Below are positions 8,445 to 43,968 of a stretch of 64,000 nucleotides of DNA, piece after piece. Positions within the stretch are counted from its first letter, which is position 1; every line of letters begins with the position of its first letter. Below the pieces are notes generated by a model, which worked only from the letters and a program-made list of their open reading frames with translations, did no database searches and was not told the DNA's origin. Both the position numbers and the translations under genes were made by a program. The stretch comes from Bacillota bacterium (GTDB lineage: Bacteria > Bacillota > Clostridia > Peptostreptococcales > Anaerovoracaceae), in assembly GCA_017433375.1 (NCBI GenBank), contig JAFRHG010000004.1, forward strand, positions 113,251 to 177,250, in the 5' to 3' direction.

Positions 8445-8480
8445 AGACAATCCATCGTACCAGAGAAGGAGGACACCGAT

Positions 8481-9344: not shown

Positions 9345-9364
9345 CCGTTTCCGGGTCCATCGTC

Positions 9365-10666: not shown

Positions 10667-10677
10667 TTTTCCCGCGC
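10650..10677 (-). terminator. Rho-independent terminator for the minus-strand GT2/ATP-grasp unit
   Basis: On the minus strand GCGCGG (10677-10672) pairs with CCGCGC (10661-10656) and is followed by CTTTTTC. It overlaps the last bases of the convergent flippase gene. Confidence 0.75.
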
Positions 10678-10704
10678 GCTTCCGTATCTGTTTAGTTTTC
10701 CTTG

Positions 10705-12869: not shown

Positions 12870-12909
12870 AAAAAAGCAATCCTCACTGTTAAGGGGTTTT
12901 CTCCACTTC

Positions 12910-12937
12910 ATTTTAACATATTATGGCAGTTTATCAA
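12910..12937 (-). promoter_or_regulatory. Sigma-A-type promoter of the GT2/ATP-grasp unit
   Basis: On the minus strand TTGATA (12937-12932), a 16-base spacer and TAAAAT (12915-12910). Its -35 box overlaps that of the divergent promoter for the gene at 13000. Confidence 0.7.
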
Positions 12938-12958: not shown

Positions 12959-12999
12959 GAACCAAGATGATGTGCACGGAACGGAGGGAGGCACAGAAT

Positions 13000-16013: not shown

Positions 16014-16044
16014 AGATTGCTCTGCATAAGAAACTGTGTTTCGG

Positions 16045-16073
16045 ACAGGGGCCGTATCATCGGCCCCTGTTTT
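16045..16073 (+). terminator. Rho-independent terminator after the YkuD gene
   Basis: ACAGGGGCCG (16045-16054) pairs perfectly with CGGCCCCTGT (16061-16070) across a six-base loop and is followed by TTT. The stem is strong but the T run is short, so some read-through into tagG is possible. Confidence 0.8.
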
Positions 16074-16095
16074 GAGGAAGCAAGAGGTTCTACGG

Positions 16096-16902: not shown

Positions 16903-16916
16903 ACAGGGGAAACAAC

Positions 16917-17642: not shown

Positions 17643-17648
17643 GAGAAG

Positions 17649-22698: not shown

Positions 22699-22727
22699 TT
22701 GCGCCTGACCGGTGGATATGGTATCAT
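22699..22727 (+). promoter_or_regulatory. Sigma-A promoter of the CapK/PaaK-like unit
   Basis: TTGCGC (22699-22704), 17 bases, TATCAT (22722-22727). It is divergent from the minus-strand promoter 22 bases away and supports the downstream GTG start at 22790. Confidence 0.7.
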
Positions 22728-22789
22728 ATAGAAAATATTCGAGGGGGCGGTTTCGACGGCGAAAACGCCTGAAAAAGAGAGGAAAAACC

Positions 22790-25761: not shown

Positions 25762-26781
25762 ATGAAGATTCTGGTGACCGGAGGAGCCGGTTTTATCGGC
25801 GCCAACTTTGTGTTTTATATGCTGGAGGAGCATCCCGAGGACGAGATCGTCTGCCTGGATGCCCTGACCTACGCGGGGAATCTGGAGACCCTGGAGCCGG
25901 CTATGGACAATCCCCGTTTCCGGTTCGTGAAGGGCGATGTGGCCGACCGGAAGGCGGTCTTCCCCCTCTTTGAGGAGGAAGGGTTCGATGTGGTGGTCAA
26001 CTTCGCCGCCGAATCCCATGTGGACCGGTCCATCGAGGATCCGGGCATCTTCCTGAAGACCAACATCCTGGGCACCCAGGTGCTCATGGACGCCTCCCGT
26101 GAGTACGGCGTGAAGCGATTCCATCAGGTGGGCACCGACGAAGTGTACGGCGACCTGCCCCTGGACCGGCCGGACCTGTTCTTTACCGAGGACATGCCCG
26201 TCACCGCCTCCAGCCCCTATTCGGCATCCAAGGCGTCGGCGGACCTCCTGGTCATGGCCTATCACCGGACCTTCGGGCTGCCGGTGACCATCAGCCGCTG
26301 CTCCAACAACTACGGACCCTACCAGTTCCCGGAGAAGCTGATCCCCCTGATGATCGCCAACGCCCTGGCGGACAAGCCCCTGCCCGTATACGGCACCGGC
26401 GAGAACGTGCGGGACTGGCTCTATGTGGAGGATCACTGCCGGGCCATCGACATGATCCTGCGCGGCGGCCGGGAAGGGGAGGTCTACAACATCGGCGGCC
26501 ACAATGAGCGGAACAACCTGGAGGTCGTCAAGACCATCCTCGCCCAGCTGGGCAAGCCGGAGAGCCTGATCACCTTCGTGGGCGACCGGAAGGGCCACGA
26601 CCTGCGGTACGCCATCGATCCGACCAAGATCCACGAGGAACTGGGATGGCTGCCCACCACGACATTCGATGACGGCATCCGCCAGACCATCGACTGGTAC
26701 CTGAACAACGAGCCCTGGTGGAAGAACATCATCAGCGGAGAGTATCAGCAGTACTACGAGAAGATGTATTCGAACCGGTAG
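25762..26781 (+). CDS. rmlB: dTDP-glucose 4,6-dehydratase
   Basis: RmlB (RfbB) converts dTDP-glucose to dTDP-4-keto-6-deoxyglucose, the substrate of the WecE-like aminotransferase at 7305. The 339-residue SDR-family protein shows the NAD loop G-G-A-G-F-I-G at the N-terminus, the active-site T-D-E-V-Y-G-D, and Y-S-A-S-K-A-S-A-D with the Tyr-Lys pair. The ribosome site is AGGAAGGAG. It stands 17 kb from rmlA, in an operon with the CapK-like and CDP-glycerol-transferase genes and followed 16 bases on by a membrane-protein gene. Confidence 0.97.
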
Positions 26782-28083: not shown

Positions 28084-28129
28084 TTAAAACACCATGGCCG
28101 CCCGGCCGGGCTTTAAAGCACCATGGCCG
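28084..28129 (-). repeat. Short direct repeat at the 3' end of the lysin-like gene
   Basis: Positions 28084-28100 and 28113-28129 match at 16 of 17 bases. The second copy encodes the last residues (A-M-V-L) and stop of the minus-strand lysin-like gene. The first, 29 bases further on, would encode A-M-V-F and a stop. It looks like a duplicated gene tail. Confidence 0.6.
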
Positions 28130-29408
28130 TGTGTCTTCCCGGACTGATCAGGATATCCCCTCGCTGCAGGTAGATCTCTGTGGTGAGGGTTTTGCTGTCG
28201 GTGATCTTGACGAAATATCCCGTAGCCATCAGCGGATTCAGGAAGTCGGAATTGCCCGTGCTTCCGGGAGCCTTGTTGCCTCCCGTAAAGGCCGGGGTGA
28301 TGCCGGCGCAGTTCACGCAGGCGCCCACCAGCGGGGAACAGGAGACCTCACAGTTCTTGGTAATTTTTGACATATCCCAGTTGGCCTTCTGGGCCAGGAG
28401 ACGAAGCTCTCCCCGGCCGCCGGCCGGCTTCTGGTCGTATCCGATGTGGTTGTTGGCGCAGGCGGCTTCCATGGCGGTTGCTGCCCGGTTGGCCAGGGTG
28501 GCATTCTTGAACCGGACGATGACCCGCCAGTTGTTGTAGGATCCCTTCTTGGAACTGTAGGACCAGTTGGAGGTGGCCACTTCGCTGCCGGTCTGATCGC
28601 CGGCCTTCCCGCCGGTCGTATTCCAGTGCTCGTCTCCGGCCGCCTGGCCGATCCGGGTCTTTCTCGCCGAAGCGGACCGCTTATCGGAAACCGGTCCCGT
28701 GCAGGTCTTGCCGTTCAGTACCGCGTAGGCCTGAACCGTGTAGGACCAGGTGGAGTTCACCTTTTTATCGTAATACAGGGCGCAGGGATCGCTTCCGGCG
28801 GCGACGGTGCGGGTGGAGATCAGCTTGCCGCTGCTGTCATATTCCTTGACGTAGTAGCCGCGCACTCCGGCCAGGGCCTTCCAGCGGACGTCCATCCGGC
28901 GGTATCCCGGGCTGTATACGTTGATCGACGGCTTGGTGAGGGCCAGCTTCTTGGTTTTGATCTTCTTCACTGCGGAGAACCGGCCGCTTTTCTGGGCCAG
29001 GCGTGTGCGCTGAACGAAGATGGGCAGGGGCCGCTTGGAAACCCACTTATGCTTCTTGGAATGGTAGTACTGGGTGTATTCCCGGAAGGCCCGGACCTTG
29101 AACTTGTAGTTGGTGGAAGGCTTCAGGTTGCGCGCGGTGTAGGCGGTGACGCCGTTGTCGTTGATGGTTTTGAGCCAGACGTACTTTTTCCGCTTGCTGT
29201 TGTACATGTAGACCTGGTAGCCTTTGGCCTTCTTGACCTTCTTCCATTTCAGGGTGACGTAGTCCACGCCGGACACGGCCCGCTTCTGGATGACCTTCGC
29301 CGGGCGGGAGGCAGCGTAACTGCCCTCCGGCAGGATCAGGTCCGCGGAGAAGGCGACAGCCAGGATCAGCATGGCCAGAATTGCCTTTGCAAAAATGTTC
29401 TTTCTCAT
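28113..29408 (-). CDS. Secreted FN3-domain protein with phage-lysin-like cysteine peptidase domain (copy 1)
   Basis: This is a predicted secreted cell-wall hydrolase (431 residues). The ATG at 29408 is used because AAAGAGG lies ten bases upstream; an in-frame TTG at 29429 lies within that site. A signal peptide (about 1-33, ending S-Y-A-A-S) precedes two fibronectin-III-like, Lys-rich repeats (about 35-235). The C-terminal 170 residues (G-Q-A-A-G-D, K-A-G-D-Q-T-G, N-H-I-G-Y-D-Q-K-P) resemble catalytic modules of gut-phage endolysins as I remember them, with the likely nucleophile in E-V-S-C-S-P and His in the terminal G-R-H-T-A-M-V-L. The protein at 34568 is a close paralogue. Confidence 0.75.
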   Translation of the reverse strand: MRKNIFAKAILAMLILAVAFSADLILPEGSYAASRPAKVIQKRAVSGVDYVTLKWKKVKKAKGYQVYMYNSKRKKYVWLKTINDNGVTAYTARNLKPSTNYKFKVRAFREYTQYYHSKKHKWVSKRPLPIFVQRTRLAQKSGRFSAVKKIKTKKLALTKPSINVYSPGYRRMDVRWKALAGVRGYYVKEYDSSGKLISTRTVAAGSDPCALYYDKKVNSTWSYTVQAYAVLNGKTCTGPVSDKRSASARKTRIGQAAGDEHWNTTGGKAGDQTGSEVATSNWSYSSKKGSYNNWRVIVRFKNATLANRAATAMEAACANNHIGYDQKPAGGRGELRLLAQKANWDMSKITKNCEVSCSPLVGACVNCAGITPAFTGGNKAPGSTGNSDFLNPLMATGYFVKITDSKTLTTEIYLQRGDILISPGRHTAMVL

Positions 29409-29441
29409 TTCTCTAACCTCTTTACGCAATTTTCCATACTC

Positions 29442-29769: not shown

Positions 29770-29822
29770 TCTCATCGCAGCAGTCGTTACAGTACGGATT
29801 GAGAAAAGGAAGGAAGAATAGC

Positions 29823-31277
29823 ATGAGCACGTGTGAAAGAAAGCATGGCCGCATGATGGTTTTCCTGCTCGTTCTTTTTGTCGCAGTGGCCTTCAGCATG
29901 CCTGAAGGAGCGGACGCGGCATCGAAAAAGCCGGGCAAGGTAAAGGGCCTGAAGGTAACGTCGACGAGCTACAATTCCGTTTCACTGAATTGGAAGAAGC
30001 CTGCGAAGGCAAAGAAATACGAAGTATACCGGTCCACATCCAGAACCGGAAAATACAAGAAGGTCAAAAAGACCGGATCCCGGTCCTTCAAGAGCAGCGG
30101 TCTCGTCACAGGACAGACCTACTGGTATAAGGTACGGGCGATCAACGGAAAGAGGAAGGGGAAGTTCAGCGCGGCAGTTTCCGCCGTTCCCCAGCTGAAG
30201 AAACCCGGGTTCACAGCAACGTCCAACGCGGGCGGCCCGAAGCTGGTTGCCGGCAAGGTGACCGGCGCGTCCGGCTACATCTTCTACCGGGACGGCCAGG
30301 CCATCGCCAAACAGGCGGGGACGACCTTTGTGGATTCCGCCATTTCCGAAAAATCCACCCACAACTACCGGACGGCGGCCTACCGGACCCAGAACGGAAA
30401 GACCATCGTGTCTCCCCTCTCCCGGACCATGCCCGCTTCCAAGCTCTCCGTCGCCGTGGATCTGGTCAACTGCAATACGGTGAACAGTCTGCAGGCGGGA
30501 GGATCCTTTGATCTGACGGGAACGATCAGGTCTACCTCCCTCATCAAGAGGGTGGAGATCGGCATCGTGGACAAGTCCACCAACAAGTGGGTGAGCGGAG
30601 CCAAGTACGACAACGGCAACGTAAATGCCAAGGAGTTCAATATCGCCAACGCGAAGAGCGCCATTTCCTTCGGCGCCCTCTATGGAGGCGTGTACAGTTA
30701 CCGGATCTACGCCCATCTTGAGGACGGCAGCCTGGTGACCGTGCTGAACCACACCTTCTCCGTGGCGGCGGGAACGGGCGCGGCAGCCATCGCCTCGACG
30801 GCGGCCCGGCTGGCATGGCCCTACGGAACGTCATCCAGCAAATACGCGTATCCCAGCGGCAGTGCGACCGACGCCTTCAACGCGGCCATTCAGCTGGCCT
30901 ACGGATCACGGTCCGGATGGGGCGCCCAGACCAAGGCCGGCGCGTCATGCGACGTATTCGTGGGAACCTGCATTCGTGCTTCCGGCTACGACACCGGATT
31001 CCCCCGCGGCCTGGACGGCGTGGAGAGCTACTGCAGCAAGCATCCGGAAAAGTGGAGAGTCACCGGTCTGAAAAGTGAGAGCGGCATGGTGGCAGGAGAT
31101 GTGATCTACCAGATCTACAGCGGAGGCGGCGGCCACATCCTGATCTATCTGGGCAACAACAGGGTCGCCAACGCCCACTACAACGGCAAGACTTACGGCA
31201 TCATCCAGACATTCTCCAGCCAGGTCAAGGCAGCGTCCAAGTGCAAGAAGTACATCGTCTACCGGGCGGTGCAATAG
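29823..31277 (+). CDS. Secreted FN3-domain NlpC/P60-like cell-wall peptidase
   Basis: This predicted peptidoglycan hydrolase has 484 residues. The ATG at 29823 follows GGAAGGAAG and fits the promoter. A signal peptide ends near A-D-A-A-S (about residue 35). A fibronectin-III-like domain (S-V-S-L-N-W-K-K) and a second FN3-like repeat reach about residue 215, followed by a beta-rich domain to about 320. The C-terminal 150 residues are papain-like, with a probable nucleophile Cys376 in G-A-S-C-D-V-F and His438 in G-G-G-H-I-L-I-Y. The first 200 residues are clearly homologous to those of the protein at 42799. It has its own promoter and terminator. Confidence 0.8.
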   Translation: MSTCERKHGRMMVFLLVLFVAVAFSMPEGADAASKKPGKVKGLKVTSTSYNSVSLNWKKPAKAKKYEVYRSTSRTGKYKKVKKTGSRSFKSSGLVTGQTYWYKVRAINGKRKGKFSAAVSAVPQLKKPGFTATSNAGGPKLVAGKVTGASGYIFYRDGQAIAKQAGTTFVDSAISEKSTHNYRTAAYRTQNGKTIVSPLSRTMPASKLSVAVDLVNCNTVNSLQAGGSFDLTGTIRSTSLIKRVEIGIVDKSTNKWVSGAKYDNGNVNAKEFNIANAKSAISFGALYGGVYSYRIYAHLEDGSLVTVLNHTFSVAAGTGAAAIASTAARLAWPYGTSSSKYAYPSGSATDAFNAAIQLAYGSRSGWGAQTKAGASCDVFVGTCIRASGYDTGFPRGLDGVESYCSKHPEKWRVTGLKSESGMVAGDVIYQIYSGGGGHILIYLGNNRVANAHYNGKTYGIIQTFSSQVKAASKCKKYIVYRAVQ

Positions 31278-32521: not shown

Positions 32522-33364
32522 ATGAGCAACGTAAACCTGTTTACCGGAAGCAGCGGCTATGTCGTCACCCCGGAACTGATGGACGCCGTCAACGTATCCA
32601 TCGCCCTGAAAAAGCCCCTCCTGATCAAGGGGGAGCCGGGAACGGGCAAGACCATGCTGGCCCAGGCCATCGCGGAATCCCTGGACAAGCCACTGATCGT
32701 CTGGAGCATCAAGTCCACCACCAAGGCCCAGGACGGCCTCTATCTCTACGATACGGTGCAGCGGCTCTACGACAGCCAGTTCGGCGAGGGAGACGTCAGC
32801 GACATCGGCCAGTACATCCGTCTGGGCAAGCTGGGCGAGGCGTTCACCTCGGAGGACCAGGCGGTCCTGCTCATCGACGAGATCGACAAGGCGGACCTGG
32901 AATTCCCCAACGACCTGCTCTGGGAGCTGGACCGGATGGAGTTCTACATCAATGAGACGAAGGAGACCATCACCACGAAGCACCGTCCCATCGTCATCAT
33001 TACCTCCAACGCGGAAAAGGAACTGCCCGACGCCTTCCTGCGCCGGTGCATCTTCCACTACATCGAATTCCCCGACGAGGAGAAGATGCGGGAGATCATC
33101 CGGGTGCATTACGGGGACCTGGATGGCAAGCTGGTGGAGAACGCCCTGGAGGCCTTTTATCAGATCCGGGAGATGAGCGATCTGCAGAAGAAGCCCAGCA
33201 CCTCGGAACTTTTGGACTGGATCCAGGCACTGATGGTGAGCGGCGTCAGCGTGGATGACCTCTCGGAGAAGATGCCCTTCGTCGGCGTGCTGCTGAAGAA
33301 GAACGAGGACATCGAGGTCATGCAGGAAATCAAGGAAAAGGGATATTCCCTCCGCAGGTGGTAA
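32522..33364 (+). CDS. MoxR-family AAA+ ATPase
   Basis: MoxR ATPases act as chaperones, usually with a partner VWA-domain protein, to mature or insert cofactors in target complexes. The 280-residue protein has Walker A G-E-P-G-T-G-K-T near residue 37, Walker B L-L-I-D-E-I-D-K-A near 117, sensor I S-N-A-E-K and the F-L-R-R-C arginine-finger region. AGGAAAGG precedes the ATG. The VWA gene starts 13 bases downstream, the standard pairing. Nothing in the neighbourhood identifies their client. Confidence 0.93.
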   Translation: MSNVNLFTGSSGYVVTPELMDAVNVSIALKKPLLIKGEPGTGKTMLAQAIAESLDKPLIVWSIKSTTKAQDGLYLYDTVQRLYDSQFGEGDVSDIGQYIRLGKLGEAFTSEDQAVLLIDEIDKADLEFPNDLLWELDRMEFYINETKETITTKHRPIVIITSNAEKELPDAFLRRCIFHYIEFPDEEKMREIIRVHYGDLDGKLVENALEAFYQIREMSDLQKKPSTSELLDWIQALMVSGVSVDDLSEKMPFVGVLLKKNEDIEVMQEIKEKGYSLRRW

Positions 33365-33377
33365 GCGAGGTCGCCCC

Positions 33378-34571
33378 ATGTTTTTGGAATTCTTTTATCT
33401 GCTTCGCGCCAAGGGTCTGAACGTGACCATCAACGAATGGATGACGCTGATGGAGGCGCTGGACAAGGGAATGGCAAAGGCAAGCCTGACCGGGTTCTAC
33501 CGCCTTTGCCGTAGCGTGCTGATCAAGACGGAAGCGGATTTCGACAAATTTGACCAGGTGTTCATGGAGTACTTCGGCGCCATCGAAACGCCGGAGGATC
33601 TGCCCCAGGAATTCTGGGACTGGCTGGCCCACGGGGAGCGGGAGAGGGACCTGGATGATCACGGTGATCAGGAACTCTTCGCCCGGGAACTGGAGGAGCT
33701 GCTTCGCATGTTCGAGGAGCGGATCCAGGAACAGAAGGAGGAGCACCACGGCGGCAACTACTGGATCGGAACCGGAGGCACATCGACCATGGGCCGGGGC
33801 GGCTACAATCCCACGGGCATCCGGGTCGGCGGCAAAAGCCGCCACAAGACGGCGCTGCAGGTGGCCGGCGAGCGGAACTTCAAGGACTTCCGGGAGGATA
33901 CGATCCTGGGCATCCGCCAGTTTCAGATGGCCTTCCGCAAGCTGCGCCAGTATTCCACCCGCGTGGACGGCGTGGAGAAGGAACTGGATCTGGACAAGAC
34001 GGTGGACGAGACCTGCGACAACGCGGGGATGCTCACTCTGGCCTATGAGCGGCCGCGGAAGAACACGGTCAAGGTGCTGCTGCTCATCGACTCAGAAGGG
34101 TCCATGCTGCCCTACAGCCGGCTGTGCAACCGGCTCTTTCAGGCCGTCAGCAAATCCAATCACTTCAAGGATCTGAAGATTTACTATTTCCACAACGCCA
34201 TCTATGACCAGCTCTACACCACGCCCCACTGCAAGATGCGGGATTCGGTGGAGACCACCTGGGTCTTCCACAAGCTGGACAGCGAGTACAAGGTGATCTT
34301 CGTCGGGGACGCGGCCATGGCGCCTTCGGAGCTGCACCGGCCGGGAGGCAACGCCATCATCGGCGTATACAACCGGGAGACGGGCATAGAATGGTTCAAC
34401 AAATTCAAAAAGAGGTTCAAAAAGCAGATCTGGCTGAACCCCATCGAAGAAAAGTACTGGGACAATACCTACGGCTCCGCCACCATCGGCGAGATCCGGA
34501 AGGTGTTCCCCATGTTTGAATTGTCTCTGACCGGTCTGGAGGCGGGGCTGAAGAAGCTGATGGTCCGTTAG
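33378..34571 (+). CDS. VWA-domain (CoxE-like) partner of the MoxR ATPase
   Basis: The product (397 residues) is of the CoxE-like family that partners MoxR proteins. The N-terminal half is helical. The middle has the family hallmark H-H-G-G-N-Y-W-I-G-T-G-G-T-S and G-Y-N-P-T-G-I-R. The VWA domain begins near residue 230. Its metal-site motif reads L-L-I-D-S-E-G-S-M, with Glu where the canonical D-x-S-x-S has Ser. The gene's stop codon overlaps that of the convergent lysin-like gene by four bases. Confidence 0.9.
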   Translation: MFLEFFYLLRAKGLNVTINEWMTLMEALDKGMAKASLTGFYRLCRSVLIKTEADFDKFDQVFMEYFGAIETPEDLPQEFWDWLAHGERERDLDDHGDQELFARELEELLRMFEERIQEQKEEHHGGNYWIGTGGTSTMGRGGYNPTGIRVGGKSRHKTALQVAGERNFKDFREDTILGIRQFQMAFRKLRQYSTRVDGVEKELDLDKTVDETCDNAGMLTLAYERPRKNTVKVLLLIDSEGSMLPYSRLCNRLFQAVSKSNHFKDLKIYYFHNAIYDQLYTTPHCKMRDSVETTWVFHKLDSEYKVIFVGDAAMAPSELHRPGGNAIIGVYNRETGIEWFNKFKKRFKKQIWLNPIEEKYWDNTYGSATIGEIRKVFPMFELSLTGLEAGLKKLMVR

Positions 34572-36001
34572 AGCACCATGCCGGTGTGTCTGCCCGGGCT
34601 CACCAGGATATCGCCCTCCATCAGATTTTTGTCGCTGCTGGTATAGTCTTTGTCCGTGATGATATCGAATTCACCGGTTCTTTCCAGGGGCCGGAGAAAG
34701 TCCGAATTGCCCGTGCTGCCGGGGGCGGGCAGATCGATGCCCGCGCAGTTGACGCATGCCCCCACCAGCGGGGAGCAGGATGCTTCACAGTTGGTGGTGA
34801 TGGCGGACATATCCCAGTTGGCCGCTTCCGCCAGTTTCTTCAGTTCGCCGCGGCCGCCGCCCGGCTTCTGATCGTAGCCGATATGGTCGTTGGCGCAGGC
34901 GTCCTTCATGGCCTGGGCGGCGATGGCCGCCTTCTGGGGGTCCTTGAACCGGGCTACGTATTTCCAGTTGTTCCACGCGTGATTCTTGGAACTGTAACTC
35001 CATTTGCCGGTGGCCATTTCATGGCCGCCTTTTTGATCGCCGGCCTTGTTTCCCGTATGCCCGTTTTCGCCGCCGATGGCCTGGCCCATTCTGGGCGACG
35101 CAGGGGACGTGGTGACGCCCTCGGATTCCGGACTTTCATAGCTCTGGCCGTCAATGGTGGCGATGGCATGCATGGTATAGGTGTAGGAGTTGCCTTTGTC
35201 CCTCCGCAGGAAGCTGGCGGCGGTCTGGTCCGCGGGGACGGTGACCGAATCCGTTTCCCCGTTGGATTCGCATTTCTCCGTGACCACGTAGCCCTGGGCT
35301 TCCGCCACCGGTTCCCAGGTCACATCGATGTGGCCCGCGCCCGGGCTGGAAGCCTGGATCACCGGCTGCTTCAGGGGATTGATCACCGCGGTGGCATCCG
35401 CCGGCGCGGAAAGGGTCTTCGACGGGCCGGCGACGGCAGTGACGGCGAAGTCGTATTCGCCGAAGCCATCCACATCCTTGAAGTCGAAGGCGGTATCCTC
35501 GGTGGTGTACTTCTTCGGCTCGGACTTATCCAGCTTTCTGGCCGCCGTGATCTCGTAGTGGTCGCAGCAGGAGGAGGGCTCCCAGGTCAGGTGAATGACG
35601 CTGTTCTTCTCATTTTTCTTATCCCCCTTCACATCCGCCTTGAGATTCTTGGCCGGATCCACATGGATCCGGAAGGACGGTGAGACGACGCCGGTATACT
35701 CGCCGATGCCGGCGATGACCACATGGGCTTTGCCCGGGTTCTTATTGCTCCGGTACCGGAGGACATAGTCCTTTCCCTTCTTCAGGGTATCCTTGTCATG
35801 GGTGATGACGACCTTCGGCTTGACCGCCTTTCCCGTATAATCGCAGTCCGCCGGTTCGACGGTGACGCTGCAGTCCCGCAGGGAAACAGCATAAACCTCC
35901 CGGATCAGGACGGCGGCAGCCGTTCCCAGAACCAGGAAGAGCAGGATCGCGGCCACAAGGGCCTTTCGGTTGTGCTGGAGTCTATGGATCAGTTCCGACA
36001 T
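34568..36001 (-). CDS. Membrane-anchored or secreted protein with phage-lysin-like cysteine peptidase domain (copy 2)
   Basis: This is a 477-residue paralogue of the protein at 28113. AGGAA precedes the ATG at 36001. Residues 14-38 form a signal or anchor helix. An Ig-like domain (about 40-115; K-P-K-V-V-I, Y-T-G) and two FN3-like domains (about 118-300) follow. The lysin-like module runs from about 305: G-Q-A-I-G-G, K-A-G-D-Q-K-G, N-D-H-I-G-Y-D-Q-K-P, E-A-S-C-S-P with the likely nucleophile, and terminal G-R-H-T-G-M-V-L with the likely His. It has its own promoter at 36045-36073. The role as peptidoglycan amidase or endopeptidase is inferred from phage relatives. Confidence 0.75.
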   Translation of the reverse strand: MSELIHRLQHNRKALVAAILLFLVLGTAAAVLIREVYAVSLRDCSVTVEPADCDYTGKAVKPKVVITHDKDTLKKGKDYVLRYRSNKNPGKAHVVIAGIGEYTGVVSPSFRIHVDPAKNLKADVKGDKKNEKNSVIHLTWEPSSCCDHYEITAARKLDKSEPKKYTTEDTAFDFKDVDGFGEYDFAVTAVAGPSKTLSAPADATAVINPLKQPVIQASSPGAGHIDVTWEPVAEAQGYVVTEKCESNGETDSVTVPADQTAASFLRRDKGNSYTYTMHAIATIDGQSYESPESEGVTTSPASPRMGQAIGGENGHTGNKAGDQKGGHEMATGKWSYSSKNHAWNNWKYVARFKDPQKAAIAAQAMKDACANDHIGYDQKPGGGRGELKKLAEAANWDMSAITTNCEASCSPLVGACVNCAGIDLPAPGSTGNSDFLRPLERTGEFDIITDKDYTSSDKNLMEGDILVSPGRHTGMVL

Positions 36002-36092: not shown

Positions 36093-36121
36093 TTGACAAG
36101 GATTATGGCGGACAATATAAT
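36093..36121 (+). promoter_or_regulatory. Consensus sigma-A promoter of the ATP-grasp/flippase operon
   Basis: TTGACA (36093-36098), 17 bases, TATAAT (36116-36121): a perfect consensus, among the strongest promoters in the window. The predicted start near 36128 rules out start codons before it. Confidence 0.95.
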
Positions 36122-36163: not shown

Positions 36164-37366
36164 ATGAAAAAAGTCATGATTCTGGGTGCGGGAAGGGGCC
36201 AGGTCGGTCTGTACAACGCCGCGAAAAGACTGGGTTACGAGACCATCGCGGTCAGCATTGACGGGGACTGGCCCGGATTCGCCCTGGCGGACCGGATATA
36301 TTACCTGAATCTTTACGATACGGAAGGCATCGCCGCCCTGGCGGAGGAGATCGGCGCCGACGGCGTGGTGACCGCCTGCCTGGAGATCGGCCTGCCGGCG
36401 CTGGGCGCCGCCTGCGACAGGAATCATCTGCCGGGGATATCCTATGAAACCGCGCTGATTTCCACGGATAAACTGCTGATGAAGGAAGCGCTGATGAAGG
36501 GCGGGGTGAGGACCGCCCGCTTCCGCCGCGCAGCCGCGGAGGAGGATCTGGAGGACATCAAAAAGGAGCTGGACTTCCCCCTGATCACCAAGGCGGTGGA
36601 CCTCTCCGGAACCCGGGGAATCCACATTGCCTTTGAAGAGAAGGACCTGCTGCCCTGCTTCCGGAAGACCATGGAAGCCACGGGCAAGGACTACTGTGTG
36701 ATCGAGGAGTATCTGGAAGGGTACGAGTGCAGCGCCACGTCCCTGATCGCCAACGGGAAAGTGGCTTTCGTCCTTCCCACCGGCGACCTGCGGTACGGGG
36801 AAAACGACGAGGTCCCCATCGGCCACTACCTTCCCTATGAGGACAGCGAGGATATCCTGCAGCAGATCGAGGAGGAAGTGACAAAGGCGATCTACGCCAT
36901 CGGCCTGGACAACTGCGCCGTCAATGTGGACATCATGATCTGCCGGGGCAAGGCCTATATCCTGGAGCTGACCGGACGGATCGGTGCCAACGCCATGCCG
37001 GAACTGACCTCCATCTACTACGGGTTCGACATCCATGAGATGATCGTGGAGACCGCCGTGGGCAACTTCGACATGGCGGAGAATTTCGCCGAAAGGAAGA
37101 TCCCCCGGACGGCCTGCATCGGGGAAATGATCCTGTCGGAGAAGGAGGGCACGATCCGTTGCCTTTCCATAGATGAACCGGACCCCGAACACGTGGAGCA
37201 GGTCTGGATGTTCGTCTCCGAGGGCTCGGAGATCAGGAAGTTTACCAATCCCAAGGACTGCATCGGACAGATCGTCGTGAAGGGCGATGACCTGGAGCAG
37301 TGCAGGCGGATCGCCGATGAGACGGTTGCCGGGATACACATAGAACTGGAGCAGGAAAGAGAATGA
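36164..37366 (+). CDS. ATP-grasp carboxylate-amine ligase-like protein (copy 2)
   Basis: This 400-residue ATP-grasp protein is the first gene of an operon with a consensus promoter. I use the ATG at 36164 (AAAGGG ten bases upstream); the frame is open further back but that part precedes the transcription start. It has the N-terminal V-M-I-L-G-A-G-R-G-Q fold, K-A-V-D-L-S-G-T-R-G-I, C-V-I-E-E-Y-L-E-G-Y-E-C and I-L-E-L-T-G-R-I-G-A-N-A-M-P-E-L. It is more distant from the ligases at 10705 and 37363 than these are from each other. Its stop overlaps the next ligase start by four bases, implying they work together, perhaps sequentially. Confidence 0.85.
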   Translation: MKKVMILGAGRGQVGLYNAAKRLGYETIAVSIDGDWPGFALADRIYYLNLYDTEGIAALAEEIGADGVVTACLEIGLPALGAACDRNHLPGISYETALISTDKLLMKEALMKGGVRTARFRRAAAEEDLEDIKKELDFPLITKAVDLSGTRGIHIAFEEKDLLPCFRKTMEATGKDYCVIEEYLEGYECSATSLIANGKVAFVLPTGDLRYGENDEVPIGHYLPYEDSEDILQQIEEEVTKAIYAIGLDNCAVNVDIMICRGKAYILELTGRIGANAMPELTSIYYGFDIHEMIVETAVGNFDMAENFAERKIPRTACIGEMILSEKEGTIRCLSIDEPDPEHVEQVWMFVSEGSEIRKFTNPKDCIGQIVVKGDDLEQCRRIADETVAGIHIELEQERE

Positions 37367-38589
37367 AAAAGGTTTTGATTCTGGGAGCCGGGATCTATCA
37401 GGTCCCCCTGATCCGCGCGGCGAAGAACGCCGGACTGTACACCATCGTTTCCAGCATTCCCGGAGACTGGCCGGGTTTCGCGGAGGCGGATCAGATCTAC
37501 TGCGTGAACACCACGGACAAGGAGGGGATCCTTCAGATCGCCCGGGAGGAAAAGATCGACGGGATCTGCACCACGGGCACCGATGTGGCGGCTGCCACCA
37601 TCGGGTATGTGAATGAGAAGCTGGGGCTGCACGGCCTGTCGGAGGCCTCCGCCGCGAGAACCTCTGACAAGACCATCATGCAGGAGACCTTCCATCGGGG
37701 CAACGTTTCCTCGGCGGCCTACATTCGCGCCGACTCCCCCCAGGAGGCTATGGAGGCGGCGGAAAAGATCGGCTATCCCGTGGTGGTCAAGTGCGTGGAC
37801 AGCTCCGGAAGCCGGGGAATCACCGCGGTTCACCGGCCGGAGGATATCGAGCAGGCCTTTGCTGAGGCCCTGGCCCACTCCCGCAAGGACTACGTCATCG
37901 TGGAGGAAAAGCTGGCCGGCGTGGAGATCGGCGTTGACGGACTGATCCAGGACGGCAAGCTGGTCTTCCTCGCGCCTCATCACAAGATCGTCTGCAAGCG
38001 CTTCAACAAGACCATCACGGCGGGGCACAGCTTCCCCTATCACGGCAGCGACGCCCTGCTGGCGGAGATCGAAAAGCAGATCCGCACGGCCATCGAGGCC
38101 ATGGGCTTCGACAACAGCGCCTTCAATTCCGATGCTTTCGTGGACGGGGATCACGTGTCCATCATCGAGATCGGCGGCAGGGCAGGGGCCACCTGCATTC
38201 CTGAGCTGATCACCCACTGCTTCGGATTCAATTACTACGAACAGATCCTCCGGCTGGCCTTCGGACAACCCGTGGAGCTGCCCGGGGAAAAGGCAACGGT
38301 TCCCTGCATGGCCAAGCTGATCATGAGTCCCGTCGACGGATTCATCACCAAGCTGGACCGGGAGGGATTTGAAGAGCTGCGCCGGGACGGGGTGGACCTG
38401 AGCATGGACTTCGCCATCGGACACGCGGTGGACTCCATGATCAACGGATCACAGAGGATCGGCCAGTTCATCGTTCCCACCCAGGACGAGGAGGAACTGA
38501 ACCTGATCGAACGCCGGGTCAACCGCTGCATTTACGTGAACGGAAAGACGCTGGATGAGCTCTGGCAGCAGGAAGAACTGCAGAAATGA
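37363..38589 (+). CDS. ATP-grasp carboxylate-amine ligase-like protein (copy 3)
   Basis: This 408-residue ATP-grasp protein is very close at its N-terminus to the ligase at 10705. Motifs are V-L-I-L-G-A-G-I-Y-Q, K-C-V-D-S-S-G-S-R-G-I, V-I-V-E-E-K-L-A-G-V-E-I and I-I-E-I-G-G-R-A-G-A-T-C. Carboxylate activation through an acyl-phosphate is expected for the superfamily; neither acid nor amine can be read from the sequence. It overlaps the preceding ligase by four bases and is followed seven bases later by a PLP-fold gene. Confidence 0.85.
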   Translation: MKKVLILGAGIYQVPLIRAAKNAGLYTIVSSIPGDWPGFAEADQIYCVNTTDKEGILQIAREEKIDGICTTGTDVAAATIGYVNEKLGLHGLSEASAARTSDKTIMQETFHRGNVSSAAYIRADSPQEAMEAAEKIGYPVVVKCVDSSGSRGITAVHRPEDIEQAFAEALAHSRKDYVIVEEKLAGVEIGVDGLIQDGKLVFLAPHHKIVCKRFNKTITAGHSFPYHGSDALLAEIEKQIRTAIEAMGFDNSAFNSDAFVDGDHVSIIEIGGRAGATCIPELITHCFGFNYYEQILRLAFGQPVELPGEKATVPCMAKLIMSPVDGFITKLDREGFEELRRDGVDLSMDFAIGHAVDSMINGSQRIGQFIVPTQDEEELNLIERRVNRCIYVNGKTLDELWQQEELQK

Positions 38590-38596
38590 GGATGGG

Positions 38597-39565
38597 ATGA
38601 CGAAGGAAATCGGCGGATATCTGGAACTGGAACACTTTCACGGGCAGGAATACTACCCGGATTTCCCCAAGGTGAATCTGGGCCGGACAGCCCTCGTGTG
38701 GCTGCTCCGCTCCGTGGGGTGCCGGAAGCTGTTCATGCCTTACTATATCTGCGACACGGTGACGGATGCCGTGGTGAAGGAAGGCGTGGAGGTGATGAAC
38801 TATCATCTGGACGAGGACCTGCGGCCCGTGTTCGCCGCCGGTGCGGAACCGGCGAAAGAGGACTGGCTCTATCTGGTCAACTACTACGGACAGCTTTCCC
38901 ATGAACAGATCCGGGAATACCGGGCGCAGTACGACAACGTGATCGTGGACAACGCCCAGGCTTACTACGATCCTCCGGCGGAAGGGGTGCACACCATCTA
39001 CACCTGCCGGAAATTCCTGGGGGTCAGCGACGGGGCCTATCTGGCTACGGATGCGCCCCTCTGCCCGAACCGGGAAGAGGATCATTCCTTCGAATACATG
39101 CAGCATCTCCTCGGCCGCTTCGAACAGGACGCCTCCGCGTGGTACAGCAGAATGCTGGAGATCGCCGAAGGGTTCGAGCATACGCCGGTGCGGCGGATGT
39201 CCGCGCTGACGGAGAACCTGCTGCGGGCCATCGACGACGAGGAGGTGATCCGAAAGAGGAGGGAGAATTACCTCACCCTGCAGGAACTGCTTCCCTCGGA
39301 CAACCCCTTCACGAAGAGGATGCCGACGGCGCCTTTCGCCTATCCCTACGCCCACGAGAACGGGGTCGAGCTGCGCAGGGCGCTGGCCGCCCAGAAGATC
39401 TACGTGCCGACCAACTGGTCGGTGCTTCTGAAGACCTGCCCGGAGGACAGCCTGGAATACCGGTGGTCCGCCGACATTCTGCCCCTTCCCGTGGATCAGC
39501 GCTACGGGGCGGACGACATGAAGCGCATCGCCGAGGCGATCAGGGAGTTTGACCGGGCGCGGTAA
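38597..39565 (+). CDS. PLP-dependent aminotransferase-fold protein, unassigned
   Basis: This 322-residue protein has the marks of a compact type I PLP enzyme distantly related to the DegT family: V-D-N-A-Q matches the Asp-containing E-D-A-A-Q region, and T-C-R-K-F-L-G-V-S-D-G-A carries a Lys at the Schiff-base position before a small-residue turn. The ATG at 38597 (GAGGATGGG upstream) is preferred to an upstream in-frame start inside the ligase gene. It is shorter than sugar aminotransferases such as the one at 7305. Its role might be to make or modify an amino sugar, or to handle the amino acid used by the ligases; this is inference. Confidence 0.7.
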   Translation: MTKEIGGYLELEHFHGQEYYPDFPKVNLGRTALVWLLRSVGCRKLFMPYYICDTVTDAVVKEGVEVMNYHLDEDLRPVFAAGAEPAKEDWLYLVNYYGQLSHEQIREYRAQYDNVIVDNAQAYYDPPAEGVHTIYTCRKFLGVSDGAYLATDAPLCPNREEDHSFEYMQHLLGRFEQDASAWYSRMLEIAEGFEHTPVRRMSALTENLLRAIDDEEVIRKRRENYLTLQELLPSDNPFTKRMPTAPFAYPYAHENGVELRRALAAQKIYVPTNWSVLLKTCPEDSLEYRWSADILPLPVDQRYGADDMKRIAEAIREFDRAR

Positions 39566-39586
39566 GGCGGCCTTTCCGAATTTGGT

Positions 39587-40861
39587 ATGAAAAATCTTCT
39601 CCGAAAACTGTTTCTTCAGACGAAGGATGTCGAGCGTTCCAGCTATATCTGGAACGCGGTCTACGGCATCGTCTTCGCATTGCAGTCGGCCGTTCTGCTG
39701 ATGGTCATCAACCGGACCAACGGACTGGACGACGCCGGCGTGTTTTCCATCGCTTACGCCATCGCCACGCTGATTTCCTTCATCGGCGATTTCGGCGTGC
39801 GGAAATACCAGGTCAGCGATATCCGGGAAGAGAATTCCTTCGCTGACTATTTCACCTCCCGCATCCTGACCTGTTCGGTGATGATGCTGGCCTGTCTGGG
39901 CGCAGCCGTTTACGGCGTGCTGTTCAACAGTTATTCCGTGTCCAAGTTCATCGTAATCATGCTCATGGGACTGGTGAAGCTGGTGGAGTCCTTCGCCGAC
40001 GTGTTTTACGGAAGATTCCAGCAGAAGGGCAGGTTGGATGTGGCGGCGAAGGCCAACAGCTTTCGGATCGCCTTTGGCATGTGCTGCTGCTCCGCCGCGC
40101 TGATCCTGACCCACGACCTGGTGATCTCCAGCGTCGTCTGGGTGCTGTCCTCCTTCGTCGGATTCTGCTGCTCCATGCTCCTGGTGTCGCCGGAGTTCTG
40201 CACCATCAGGGTTCATTTCGCGAAGGTGCCCCAGCTGAGGATCATCCGGGAGTGCCTGCCCCTGTTCATCGGGGCCTTCCTCCTGATCTACCTGGGGAAC
40301 GCGTCCAAGTACGCCATCGACGCCTACATGGACGACGCCAGCCAGGCCTGCTACAACTTCATCTATATGCCCGTATTCGCCATCGGTCTTTTGGCCAACT
40401 TCGTGTTCAATCCGGTGCTGGTGACCATGAGCGAAAACTGGGATACGGGAAACTATAAGGCCTTTCATCGCATTATCTGGAAGCAGCAGGGCGTCATCGC
40501 CGCCCTGACGATCCTGGCGGTCCTGGTGGCGCTGACCATCGGATGCCCGATCCTGGGCATCCTGTACCACGCGGATCTGTCGGAATTCAAAATGGAACTG
40601 GTGGTGCTGATGATCGGCGGCGGCATGCTGGCCCTGGTCAATTTCTACACGGTGGTGATCACCGTTATACGCTGCCAGAAGCATCTGACCGCCGGATATA
40701 TCGGCGTAGCGCTGATTGCGTGGATTATGGCTGGAAAATTCGTGCAGGGTTATGGTATTATGGGAGCAGCGGTTCTGTATACCGCCCTGATGACCCTGCT
40801 GGCCATCGTGTTTGCCGGCGTACTGCTGATCTGTGATCGATTGGAGCGTAAAAAATGCTGA
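39587..40861 (+). CDS. Wzx-like polysaccharide flippase (copy 2)
   Basis: This 424-residue polytopic protein is homologous along its length to the flippase at 9365 (shared N-R-T-N-G, D-A-G-V-F-S-I-A, F-Q-Q-K-G-R-L-D-V-A-A-K-A, S-K-Y-A-I-D, L-V-A-L-T-I-G). It is predicted to translocate a lipid-linked sugar intermediate. It stands in the operon between the PLP-fold gene and a GT2 gene whose start overlaps its end by seven bases. Confidence 0.85.
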   Translation: MKNLLRKLFLQTKDVERSSYIWNAVYGIVFALQSAVLLMVINRTNGLDDAGVFSIAYAIATLISFIGDFGVRKYQVSDIREENSFADYFTSRILTCSVMMLACLGAAVYGVLFNSYSVSKFIVIMLMGLVKLVESFADVFYGRFQQKGRLDVAAKANSFRIAFGMCCCSAALILTHDLVISSVVWVLSSFVGFCCSMLLVSPEFCTIRVHFAKVPQLRIIRECLPLFIGAFLLIYLGNASKYAIDAYMDDASQACYNFIYMPVFAIGLLANFVFNPVLVTMSENWDTGNYKAFHRIIWKQQGVIAALTILAVLVALTIGCPILGILYHADLSEFKMELVVLMIGGGMLALVNFYTVVITVIRCQKHLTAGYIGVALIAWIMAGKFVQGYGIMGAAVLYTALMTLLAIVFAGVLLICDRLERKKC

Positions 40862-41811
40862 TTTCATTTGTGATACCCTGTTACCGTTCCGTGGATACCC
40901 TGCCCCATGTGGTGCAGGATATTCAGGACATGGTGGCGTCCAGAGACGGATACGAGGCGGAGATCGTTCTCGTCAACGACTGTTCGCCCGATGACACCTT
41001 CCAGTGCATCCAGCGGCTGACGGAGGAGCACGACAACGTGATCGGCATCGACATAGCCAAGAACCGGGGACAGCAGAACGCCATGATGGCGGGTTTCCAC
41101 TATACCTCCGGCGAGCTGATCATCGGCTGCGACGATGACGGGCAGACACCGGTGGAAACGGTCTTCGAGATGATCGACCACCTGAACGAGGGTGATTACG
41201 ATGTGGTCTGCGCCCGATACAAGGACCGGGGAAACCGTTCCCTCTTCCGCAGGCTGGGCACCTGGGCGGACCGGAAGATGGTCAAGGTCTTCCTGGAAAA
41301 ACCGGACGAGTTCAACACGGCCATCTATTTTGTGGCCCGCCGCTTCGTCATCGAGGAGATCATGCAGTACGACAACCCGTATCCCTACTGGACGGGGCTG
41401 CTGCTGCGGACGACCCACAATGTGGGCAACGTGGAGACGGTGCAGAAGGACCGGATCGCCGGCACATCCAACTACAATTTCCGAAAGCTGTTCGGCCTGT
41501 GGATCAACGGCATCACATCCTGTTCCATCAAGCCCCTGCGGTTCGCCTCCATGATCGGCGCGCTGCTGGCGCTGGCGGGATTCGTCATCATCATCATCCT
41601 GGTCATCATGAAGATCGCTTCCGGCTTCTCCATGGGGTGGACATCCCTGATCGCCACCAACATCCTGGTCGGCGGCATGATCATGCTGATGCTGGGCCTG
41701 ATCGGTGAATACATCGGAAGAATCTATCTGAGCCTGAACAAGGAGCCGCAATACGTGATCCGGCGGGTCATCGACCGGAAAAACCGCGGCGACGATGAAC
41801 AGAAAGACTGA
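40855..41811 (+). CDS. GT2 glycosyltransferase with C-terminal membrane anchor (copy 2)
   Basis: This 318-residue family 2 glycosyltransferase is a paralogue of the one at 11904. The GT-A core has I-S-F-V-I-P-C-Y at the N-terminus, V-N-D-C-S-P-D-D, N-R-G-Q-Q-N-A and C-D-D-D-G-Q-T; two hydrophobic segments lie after about residue 225, placing the enzyme on the inner membrane face. GtrB- or DPM1-like transfer to polyprenyl phosphate is plausible. The start overlaps the flippase gene by seven bases. Confidence 0.9.
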   Translation: MLISFVIPCYRSVDTLPHVVQDIQDMVASRDGYEAEIVLVNDCSPDDTFQCIQRLTEEHDNVIGIDIAKNRGQQNAMMAGFHYTSGELIIGCDDDGQTPVETVFEMIDHLNEGDYDVVCARYKDRGNRSLFRRLGTWADRKMVKVFLEKPDEFNTAIYFVARRFVIEEIMQYDNPYPYWTGLLLRTTHNVGNVETVQKDRIAGTSNYNFRKLFGLWINGITSCSIKPLRFASMIGALLALAGFVIIIILVIMKIASGFSMGWTSLIATNILVGGMIMLMLGLIGEYIGRIYLSLNKEPQYVIRRVIDRKNRGDDEQKD

Positions 41812-41825
41812 AGGAGGCTTACCTG

Positions 41826-42242
41826 ATGAAACGCGTACTGACCTACGGAACCTACGATCTGCTTCACTACGGCCACATCCGCCTGCTGAAGCGGGCCAAG
41901 GCGCTGGGCGATTATCTGATCGTGGCCATCTCCACCGACGAGTTCAATGCGGGCAAAGGCAAGAAGGCCTACCACAACTACGAGACCCGCAAGGAGATGC
42001 TGGAAGCCGTCCGCTACGTTGACCTGGTGATCCCGGAGGAGAGCTGGGAGCAGAAGATCAACGATGTGCTCACTTACAAGGTGGACGTGGTGGTCATGGG
42101 CGGCGACTGGAGAGGAAGCGACCGTTTCGAATACCTGAAGGACTACTGCGAAGTGGTCTACCTGGACCGGACGGAGGGCGTCTCCACGACCCAGATCAAA
42201 AAAGAACTGAACCTGCAGGAACCCCCGGGGATACCCGACTAG
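41826..42242 (+). CDS. tagD: Glycerol-3-phosphate cytidylyltransferase
   Basis: TagD makes CDP-glycerol from CTP and glycerol-3-phosphate, the donor for the three CDP-glycerol transferases in this window. The 138-residue protein is a standard nucleotidyltransferase with the T-Y-G-T-Y-D-L-L-H-Y-G-H H-x-G-H motif near residues 7-18, G-G-D-W-R-G-S-D, and the R-T-E-G-V-S-T-T signature near residue 119. AAGGAGG precedes the ATG. It is the last gene of the operon from 36164 and is followed by a terminator. Confidence 0.95.
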   Translation: MKRVLTYGTYDLLHYGHIRLLKRAKALGDYLIVAISTDEFNAGKGKKAYHNYETRKEMLEAVRYVDLVIPEESWEQKINDVLTYKVDVVVMGGDWRGSDRFEYLKDYCEVVYLDRTEGVSTTQIKKELNLQEPPGIPD

Positions 42243-42669: not shown

Positions 42670-42698
42670 TTGAAATCCGCAGAGGGATGATATACAAT
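42670..42698 (+). promoter_or_regulatory. Sigma-A promoter of the NlpC/P60-like gene at 42799
   Basis: TTGAAA (42670-42675), 17 bases, TACAAT (42693-42698). The transcript would start near 42705 and have a leader of about 95 bases. Confidence 0.75.
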
Positions 42699-42798
42699 GT
42701 ACGGTAGACTTCAGCGGCTAAGGAAGTTCGTCGCTGGCAGTGCGCCCCGGGCGGAAACCCTGCACCGATGGCGCGCGCTGGAGAGAGGAGAGATCGGA

Positions 42799-43968
42799 AT
42801 GAGCGGAACAGAAAGAAGGACAGGATCGAAGACGGGCATTGCCGCCGTCATCATTATGGTGATCGTCGCGGTTGCCTTTTGCCTTCCGGAAACATCTTCG
42901 GCTACGCTGAAGAAGCCGGGCAAGGTGAAGAACGTCAAGGTCGCTGCGAAATCATATAACTCCGTCAGCCTGACCTGGAACCCGGCGGGAAACGCGAAGG
43001 CCTACCAGATCTACCGGGCGGAGAAGAACAAAGGATTCAAGAGGATCAAGAAGGTGAGCGAGACATCGTTCACCGACAAGAAGCTGGTCACGGGAAAGAA
43101 ATACAAGTATAAGATCCGGGCGGTCAACGGAGTCCGCAAGGGCGACTGGTGCCGTGTCCTGACGGTAACGCCCAGACTGAATAAGCCGGTGCTGCGGGCC
43201 CGTTCCACCGAGGAAGGACCGGTGCTGACCATTGAGAAGGTACCCGGCGCGACGGGATACTGTTTCTTCCGTGACGGAAAACAGATCGCCCGCCAGCGAC
43301 CCCTGACCTTCGTGGACCGCAGCGTCAAAAAGGGCACGACCCATAAGTACAAGGTGAAGGCCTACCGGGTGGTCAAGGGAAAGAAGAAATACTCTCCCGT
43401 ATCCCAGGTTCTCGCCGCGTCCAAGACGAAATCCTCAGCTGAAGTGGGCAGAGCCGCGGCCGTCGCCTGGGCGAAGAAGATCGCAAACGACAACAGCTTC
43501 ACCTATGGAACCGGGAGAAAGGCCCACCGGCGGGGCTGCTACTTCTGCGGAACGAACAAGAAGTACAAGCCGGCGGGATACGAGAAAACCTATTGCTGCA
43601 ACCCCTTCGTCCTGGCGGCGTACGCCCACGGGGCGAAGCATCCCAAGGTACTGGCCGGATGCAAGAAGGGGGACTGCGCAGGAATGCTTCCCAGCGACTG
43701 GACGAAATACGGCTGCTTCGATAATGTGGGCAAGACGACCGCCGTGCCCTTCGCCACGCTGAAGAGCGGGGACATCATCATCAGCCAGAAGAGTGCGGGA
43801 GGACCCTTCGAGCACGTTTGGCTGTACTGCGGCGGCAACGAGTACGTTGACGCCGGCTCCGAGGGATGGGACGCCAAATCCATCTCGGTCAAAAAGAACG
43901 CGGAGAAGTACTACAAGATCTACCTGCGCAAGGGCTGCTACGTGATCCGGTACAACGGCAAGCAGTAA
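42799..43968 (+). CDS. Secreted FN3-domain NlpC/P60-like cell-wall peptidase (second copy)
   Basis: This predicted secreted wall hydrolase has 389 residues. I choose the ATG at 42799 because GAGAGGAGAG lies seven bases upstream and the signal peptide (about 1-36) then starts normally; the ATG at 42697 lies upstream of the predicted transcription start. Two FN3-like Lys-rich repeats (about 38-210) align with those of the protein at 29823. The catalytic domain has a Cys pair at 266-267 in Y-C-C-N-P-F, one of which is the likely nucleophile, and His339 in F-E-H-V-W-L-Y-C. Extra cysteines (C-Y-F-C, G-C-K-K-G-D-C) may form disulfides or bind metal. It ends in a terminator that doubles as the lexA control region. 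Confidence 0.8.
   Translation: MSGTERRTGSKTGIAAVIIMVIVAVAFCLPETSSATLKKPGKVKNVKVAAKSYNSVSLTWNPAGNAKAYQIYRAEKNKGFKRIKKVSETSFTDKKLVTGKKYKYKIRAVNGVRKGDWCRVLTVTPRLNKPVLRARSTEEGPVLTIEKVPGATGYCFFRDGKQIARQRPLTFVDRSVKKGTTHKYKVKAYRVVKGKKKYSPVSQVLAASKTKSSAEVGRAAAVAWAKKIANDNSFTYGTGRKAHRRGCYFCGTNKKYKPAGYEKTYCCNPFVLAAYAHGAKHPKVLAGCKKGDCAGMLPSDWTKYGCFDNVGKTTAVPFATLKSGDIIISQKSAGGPFEHVWLYCGGNEYVDAGSEGWDAKSISVKKNAEKYYKIYLRKGCYVIRYNGKQ

Follow-up and report, generated by a model that had tools for sequence, protein, structure and literature searches.

A six-gene operon at positions 36164–42242 of a 64,000-nucleotide stretch of a Bacillota genome is real, partly conserved and functionally coherent, and the chemistry proposed for it, the joining of an acid to an amino sugar, probably holds. 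"The window" below means that whole stretch (G000:C15:113251-177250, where G000 is the source genome, a 1.95 Mb draft); the closest named kin of the genome, among the matches listed, are Clostridiales/Bacillota metagenome-assembled genomes from the ruminant gut, some of them labelled Mogibacterium. The preferred reading, held with moderate confidence from gene content and homology, is that the pathway would decorate wall teichoic acid with an acylated form of 4-amino-4,6-dideoxygalactose (Fuc4N) and, as part of the same estimate, that the operon would be the second, enlarged copy of this sugar-decoration pathway in the window.

The operon and a second set in the window

The operon lies behind a sigma-70-type, promoter-like site at 36093–36121 (TTGACA-17-TATAAT, agreeing with the consensus at 12/12 positions) and is encoded throughout on the forward strand. 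It runs from an L-amino-acid-ligase-like ATP-grasp ligase with a LAL_C2 domain (ATPg1, 36164–37366) through a second ATP-grasp ligase (ATPg2, 37363–38589), a compact, DegT/ArnB-like enzyme of the pyridoxal phosphate (PLP) fold (38597–39565), a Wzx-type flippase (PF01943; 39587–40861) and a family 2 glycosyltransferase (GT2) of the ArnC/GtrB kind, a predicted undecaprenyl-phosphate sugar transferase (40855–41811), to tagD, the gene for glycerol-3-phosphate cytidylyltransferase (41826–42242; TIGR01518, above cut-off). This gene set, its tight coupling and the consensus promoter had been described in a sequence-only reading of the same DNA and were confirmed; that reading had missed the likely sugar, deoxythymidine diphosphate (dTDP)-Fuc4N, and a second ligase/GT2/flippase set at 9365–12911.

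The second set follows two sugar genes on the forward strand: wecE, encoding dTDP-4-amino-4,6-dideoxygalactose transaminase (7305–8444; NF008687, 619.9 vs 375 bits), and rmlA, encoding glucose-1-phosphate thymidylyltransferase (8481–9344; TIGR01207, 466 vs 361 bits). Next comes a second Wzx-type flippase (9365–10666, +), 43% identical to the first, on which a reverse-strand pair converges, consisting of a third ATP-grasp ligase with a LAL_C2 domain (ATPg3, 10705–11907), recovered by a homologue search of the organism's own genome, and a second ArnC-like GT2 (11904–12911), which overlaps ATPg3 by four bases and is 36% identical to the GT2 of the operon. Further along lies rmlB, encoding dTDP-glucose 4,6-dehydratase (25762–26781, +; TIGR01181, 492 vs 365 bits, at G000:C15:139015-139980). 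WecE, RmlA and RmlB all exceed their curated cut-offs; the cell is thus probably able to make dTDP-Fuc4N, and by homology this is probably the sugar concerned. Genes for teichoic acid export and polymerisation occupy 16036–20010 (+), with TagG- and TagH-like proteins recognised by eye and TarB- and TarF-like proteins; the TarB and TarF matches fall below cut-off, and the TagG-like protein is without an NCBIfam match. An L,D-transpeptidase (YkuD) and a cytidine diphosphate-glycerol polymerase-like protein are also encoded around the second set. The expected neighbourhood of wall-polymer and lipid-linked-sugar genes was thereby borne out by wecE, rmlA, rmlB and the teichoic acid genes.

For the GT2 of the operon, ArnC was the best match in both NCBIfam (NF007986; 152.5 bits where the cut-off is 529) and the PDB (5.6e-36), and the ArnC and sll0501 chains align with its residues 3-309 and 3-303. 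The GT2 domain is followed by two C-terminal membrane helices, as in the ArnC/GtrB type, and judged by these matches the enzyme is one that works like ArnC but is not ArnC proper. GT2s of this kind load single sugars on undecaprenyl phosphate. The pairing of such a GT2 with a flippase, which characterises multi-component transmembrane glycosylation systems, was found in the operon and in the second copy. A candidate for the outer-side (GT-C) transferase is a multi-pass membrane protein at 12967–14721 (+), which is kept in 5/10 loci with the full WecE/flippase/ligase/GT2 stretch and cut by the contig end in one more; its invariant YETNDDY near the N-terminus is reminiscent of the modified DxD motif that the available part of PMC8035078 gives for GT-C enzymes. 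YfhO is encoded elsewhere in the genome, and two YfhO proteins occur in a related locus (L138, see below).

Several other genes in the window were recorded. An endolysin-like ELLD domain (PF25309) is encoded at 34568–36001 (−), with a look-alike, recognised by eye, at 28113–29429 (−), and proteins combining fn3 with weak NlpC/P60 matches at 29799–31277 and 42697–43968 are perhaps wall hydrolases. A PaaK/CapK-like adenylate-forming enzyme, named by eye and with no Pfam match, lies at 22712–24106, and a look-alike of it stands after a GT2 and a ligase at 13189–14496 of locus L140. An AAA ATPase (weak MadB match) and a CoxE-like VWA protein form a pair at 32522–34571, next to the lysine exporter LysO (PF03956; 31372–32478).

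The ATP-grasp ligases and the PLP-fold protein

The three ligases of the window are 34–43% identical to one another, and Pfam ATP-grasp families match them as well as the family members scanned. Four residues, K103, K143, E181 and R272, are invariant across 38 members and are presumably the catalytic Lys, Lys, Glu and Arg of the ATP-grasp domain. LAL_C2 scored above the Pfam gathering score in ATPg1 and ATPg3 and reached E<=0.001 in 21/38 members, with PylC-like_N in 15/38. Profile and PDB matches relate the ligases to BacD, DdaF and BL00235. Their closest PDB chain is 4dim (5.8e-94 for ATPg1), followed for ATPg1 by the L-amino acid ligase BL00235 (6.3e-17), with which its residues 16-393 align. 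The chain 4dim groups with these ligases though it is named phosphoribosylglycinamide synthetase; the name may be automatic, as ATPg1 matches 4dim far better than any PurD chain.

That name and weak Pfam GARS_A and CPSase matches could suggest ordinary purine or carbamoyl-phosphate enzymes located here by chance, a case that the sequence-only reading had itself named as a refutation. Such a housekeeping role was rejected, every such NCBIfam match listed being far under its cut-off: among the families listed (the best 25 of 28 and the best 25 of 54), PurT reached 72.8 against 339 bits, PurD 50.0 against 288, carbamoyl-phosphate synthase 55.1 against 1027 and the related PRK12767 38.0 against 218. 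With three copies in one window and a polysaccharide context kept in the kin, this explanation is extremely improbable. The ligases carry the motif ELTGRIG or EIGGRAG, which is nearer to EVGARIG of BL00235 than to EVSPRPHDTG of the PurT-like chain 2czg. Because of this motif and the low purine scores they are regarded as resembling L-amino-acid ligases more than purine enzymes, a class assignment made by homology.

In a subtler variant, PurT-like ligases would use activated formate to N-formylate Fuc4N, and the pathway would copy ArnA/ArnC in loading the sugar as a formamide. PurT models are indeed among the better NCBIfam matches (72.8 and 72.5 bits for ATPg2), and the best NCBIfam match of the GT2 is the transferase for undecaprenyl-phosphate 4-formamido-arabinose; but the two PurT scores stand far below cut-offs of 339 and 502 bits, the motif and the frequency of LAL_C2 both favour the amino-acid ligases, and formylation alone would leave two ligases unexplained. 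Formylation is accordingly considered quite unlikely, and amide formation, most likely with an amino acid, is retained as part of the acylated-Fuc4N pathway.

The PLP protein has the type I fold of the sugar aminotransferases (DegT/DnrJ/EryC1/StrS). Its K139 and D118, invariant in 30 family members, align with K183 and D154 of WecE and are taken to be the PLP lysine and the ring-contacting aspartate. It gave no Pfam or NCBIfam match, the 30 members gave a single weak match to family profiles (YfjL_C), and PDB searches with the sequence and with its profile returned nothing useful. The family, for which a fold and a context can now be assigned although no Pfam or NCBIfam model found it here, has 485 relatives among the 497 stretches matching the scan pattern. 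It is thinly distributed (counts including G000): 6/37 genomes of the genus, 8/291 of the class at E<=0.001 (two weak) and 6/398 of the phylum at E<=1e-20 (four distant).

Neighbourhoods were counted in 74 loci, which remained from the best 80 of the 485 relatives after removal of six without the PLP protein in the gene call; because only these best matches were used, the counts lean to close kin. L010 and L018 (internal stops) were excluded from A2, and L068 from A3. A ligase is the immediate neighbour of the PLP protein in 47/74 loci, compared with a mean of 6.9 and a maximum of 15 in 500 random-gene draws; an ArnC-like GT2 is beside the PLP protein in 36/74, and in four of the 74 a GNAT acetyltransferase directly adjoins it where other loci have the ligase. 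Four aminotransferases from these loci, chosen at 64–70% identity to the WecE of the window, all exceeded the WecE cut-off (4/4). In a ligase tree, a quick one with long branches that was used for grouping alone, the three window ligases fall in a 40-row set containing 19/19 ligases upstream of a PLP gene, and the other set takes 11/12 of those downstream of a PLP gene after a ligase and 24/24 of those after a GT2.

The PLP protein was also considered as an essential partner of the ligases, and this was rejected: three loci (L138, L139 and L133) have a ligase pair beside a GT2 and no PLP gene in view, and no PLP match was found in their genomes (G007, G014 and G035). It is an accessory protein, aminotransferase-like to judge from its fold and kept residues. 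Among its homologues, those of L010 and L018 have an in-frame stop inside the matched stretch and are perhaps decayed, and a second, more distant paralogue (31–32% identical) occurs 2–3 kb from the first in L033 (5592–6593) and L034 (11850–12851). A locus of Proteus mirabilis H63 (L023, 12130–16972), in a 4.08 Mb record that is labelled a plasmid but is chromosome-like (NZ_OL790811.1), combines a DesI-like aminotransferase, a GT2-like protein, WbqC, a PLP homologue and an epimerase, adjoining cpxR/cpxA-like genes. The polysaccharide structure of that locus could reveal the product of the PLP protein; no solved structure for this PLP/WbqC module appears in the available parts of PMC5560731 and PMC9630907.

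Conservation and linkage across genomes

The earlier expectation that the set would be conserved elsewhere holds for sub-sets and not for the whole. As a conserved unit the exact six-gene operon was rejected: it is seen whole just in G000 and in G011, where it is split over two contigs and the ligases are 81% (ATPg1) and 84% (ATPg2) identical; in G034 the ligase pair lies on a short contig whose end falls within the second ligase. What recurs is, in the genus, a ligase with GT2, flippase and WecE and, in the wider loci, the PLP protein with a ligase as its immediate neighbour.

In the genus set of 37 genomes, WecE was counted over its curated cut-off (26/37) and the ATPg2-like ligase at E<=1e-40. 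Both are present in 22, the ligase alone in 2, WecE alone in 4 and neither in 9, a co-occurrence with a Fisher p of 2.4e-4 uncorrected for kinship, and the two lie <=10 kb apart in 15/22 genomes having both. In the 14 others of these 15 genomes, all fetched and so chosen for a ligase–WecE distance of <=10 kb, a single stretch like that at 7305–12911 holds WecE, a flippase, an ATPg3-like ligase and a GT2 in 10, two more show the set up to a contig end, and the remaining two have GT2-ligase-ligase near rmlA-wecE. Of the genomes with WecE alone, G005 shows part of a ligase where a contig ends, and G012 has a GT2 with a more distantly related ligase next to it.

This linkage bears on the proposal that the product of the ligases is a free dipeptide, or that their target is not the sugar (but, e.g., glycerol phosphate or a lipid), the sugar genes being neighbours in a shared surface island. 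BacD, DdaF and BL00235, to which the ligases are related, make free dipeptides. Yet ATPg3 overlaps its GT2 by four bases, the operon ligases share one transcription unit with a flippase and a GT2, the ligase is close to WecE in the 15 genomes just mentioned, and GNAT acetyltransferases take the ligase position beside the PLP protein in four loci; this proposal is therefore very unlikely.

The locus most telling for the acylated-Fuc4N pathway is L138 (G007), where wecE, tagD, two YfhO genes (302 and 278 bits vs a cut-off of 28.5), a Glyphos_transf polymerase, rmlA, rmlB, a GT2 and two tandem ligases follow on one strand. Its GT2 is 70% identical to that of the operon and one tandem ligase is 53% identical to ATPg1; a protein weakly like the L,D-transpeptidase of the window (24%) is also present, and no PLP gene or flippase is in view in the locus. 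By homology, the sugar, its loading enzyme, tandem ligases, the polymer precursor and a likely transferase for the outer side are all represented in this single run of L138. L139 (G014) has, in two orientations, GT2-ligase-ligase, YfhO, rmlA, tagD and an rmlB recognised by eye, and holds a distant relative (23%) of the 12967–14721 protein.

The same kind of comparison touches on whether the genes build a Wzx/Wzy-type repeating unit, with the acylated amino sugar as a backbone residue and not a side branch. The operon flippase is Wzx-type; loci of the wider kin that resemble capsule clusters combine ligase-PLP-ligase sets with adjoining Polysacc_synt_3 flippases, rmlAB and DesI-like aminotransferases (below cut-off), and the PLP homologue and WbqC of Proteus mirabilis stand in a locus resembling an O-antigen cluster, several of its genes being named by eye. 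But the GT2 in the window and genus is of the single-sugar-loading ArnC/GtrB kind, no Wzy was seen in the operon, and teichoic acid genes and YfhO are linked in L138. Moreover, a Wzx-type flippase, GacK, has been proposed in a side-branch system too, according to the available part of PMC8035078. A backbone role is thus unlikely, and decoration of teichoic acid by a side branch is preferred.

The proposed pathway and its known counterparts

In the proposed pathway RmlA, RmlB and WecE would make dTDP-Fuc4N, to whose 4-amino group one or both ligases would join, with ATP and in the cytosol, a carboxylic acid as an amide, the acid most likely being an amino acid. The ArnC-like GT2 would then transfer the sugar, now acylated, to undecaprenyl phosphate, the flippase of the Wzx type would turn the lipid-linked sugar outward, and a membrane transferase (the 12967–14721 protein or the YfhO encoded elsewhere) would put it on a glycerol-phosphate teichoic acid, for which TagD would supply the precursor. 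The reactions of RmlA, RmlB, WecE, GT2, flippase and TagD are those expected from their families; less confidence goes to N-acylation as the reaction of the ligases, the point at which it happens, the identity of the acyl group and of the acceptor, and the choice of outer transferase, and the PLP step is the least secure of all: this accessory protein may supply the ligases with an unusual amino acid or give the sugar a second amino group. The earlier suggestion that an acid is added to the sugar before export fits well, with its core re-drawn around WecE, ligase, GT2 and flippase and with the sugar now probably dTDP-Fuc4N.

Several observations weigh against this pathway. wecE belongs to a different transcription unit, at a distance of 28 kb from the operon, and its product may act with the ligase set at 7305–12911 alone; the PLP gene directly adjoins a sugar aminotransferase gene in just 1/74 loci. 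No ligase reaches E<=1e-40 in G003 (91% complete) and G020 (96%), each with WecE, and no WecE exceeds the cut-off in G002 and G027, each with the ligase; among 24 genomes of the order outside the genus, WecE is over cut-off in 6 and the ligase, at E<=1e-40, is found in none. ATPg2 has no LAL_C2 match in Pfam, and the ligases weakly match PurT and PurD models. The 12967–14721 protein matches no family, PDB or YfhO profile, and its single-sequence structural model is poor (mean predicted local distance difference test score, pLDDT, of 42). Finally, no published assay was found for any enzyme of the set.

A broader reading, given slightly less than even credence, is that an undescribed modification of Gram-positive walls may exist, in which 4-amino-4,6-dideoxy sugars with amide-bonded (amino) acids would be placed on teichoic acid, the ligases acting on dTDP-sugars that are then loaded on undecaprenyl phosphate. 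It would occur sparsely but widely among gut Firmicutes, and a compact, divergent family of aminotransferases would provide a special building block. The proposed pathway offers a testable chemistry for a group of ligases of gut Firmicutes that are uncharacterised and lie next to sugar genes, and if they add amino acids to sugars destined for the lipid carrier, teichoic acids would gain charged groups separately from D-alanylation. A literature search, mainly of open-access sources, found no description of ligases joined to such a sugar pathway or of this chemistry in Gram-positive bacteria, and nothing on ATP-grasp enzymes together with teichoic acid, O-antigen, WbqC or capsule.

Among characterised ATP-grasp enzymes, the L-amino acid ligases (BL00235, BacD) and PylC share with these ligases the fold, an E-x-G-x-R-x-G-like motif and, for some family members, a LAL_C2 or PylC-like N-domain, whereas the predicted substrate here is an aminodeoxy sugar and the sequences are distant. 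TupA and the sugar-transfer-associated ATP-grasp families (PF14305, PF14397) are predicted to act in the synthesis of surface polymers or novel metabolites, a role also reportedly predicted for ATP-grasp proteins in the 2009 amidoligase survey of Iyer et al. These, too, are ATP-grasp families near surface polymers, but the present family is mostly outside PF14397, which matches just 2/38 members, and TupA is absent among the 15 families listed.

Multi-component transmembrane glycosylation systems share the undecaprenyl-phosphate-loading GT2, the flippase, an outer GT-C or YfhO transferase (a candidate here) and a teichoic acid or rhamnan acceptor, as far as the available parts of PMC8035078 and PMC5836110 describe them, the latter including the CsbB/YfhO model. 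The sugars added by the CsbB/GtcA/YfhO and GacI/GacK/GacL systems are glucose, galactose and N-acetylglucosamine, with some entries listed as unknown (Table 1 of PMC8035078). The present sets differ in that one or two ligases and a pathway for an aminodeoxy sugar are built in, and the available part of PMC8035078 names no ATP-grasp enzyme.

With the RmlA-RmlB-WecE-WecD branch of enterobacterial common antigen synthesis, the genome shares RmlA, RmlB and a WecE over cut-off, but a ligase is linked to WecE where that branch has WecD. WecD acetylates Fuc4N from acetyl-CoA. The product, Fuc4NAc, has been reported just in Gammaproteobacteria, according to the available part of PMC7725333, and the present genes point to a use of Fuc4N outside them.

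The Gram-negative Arn pathway has in common with the one proposed here a 4-amino sugar, N-acylation before lipid loading (predicted here) and an ArnC-like GT2. Its sugar, uridine diphosphate 4-amino-4-deoxyarabinose (UDP-Ara4N), is formylated by ArnA before lipid loading by ArnC. A further Arn-like trait is seen in the wider kin, where a pair of small EamA-type transporters occurs, one with weak ArnF/ArnE matches. The differences lie in the probable sugar (dTDP-Fuc4N, not UDP-Ara4N), in the predicted acylating enzymes (ATP-grasp ligases, not the ArnA formyltransferase), in the Wzx flippase of the window and in teichoic acid as the likely acceptor; if the proposal is true, the system would be to Gram-positive bacteria what the aminoarabinose pathway is to Gram-negative ones, and it could adjust the charge of the surface.

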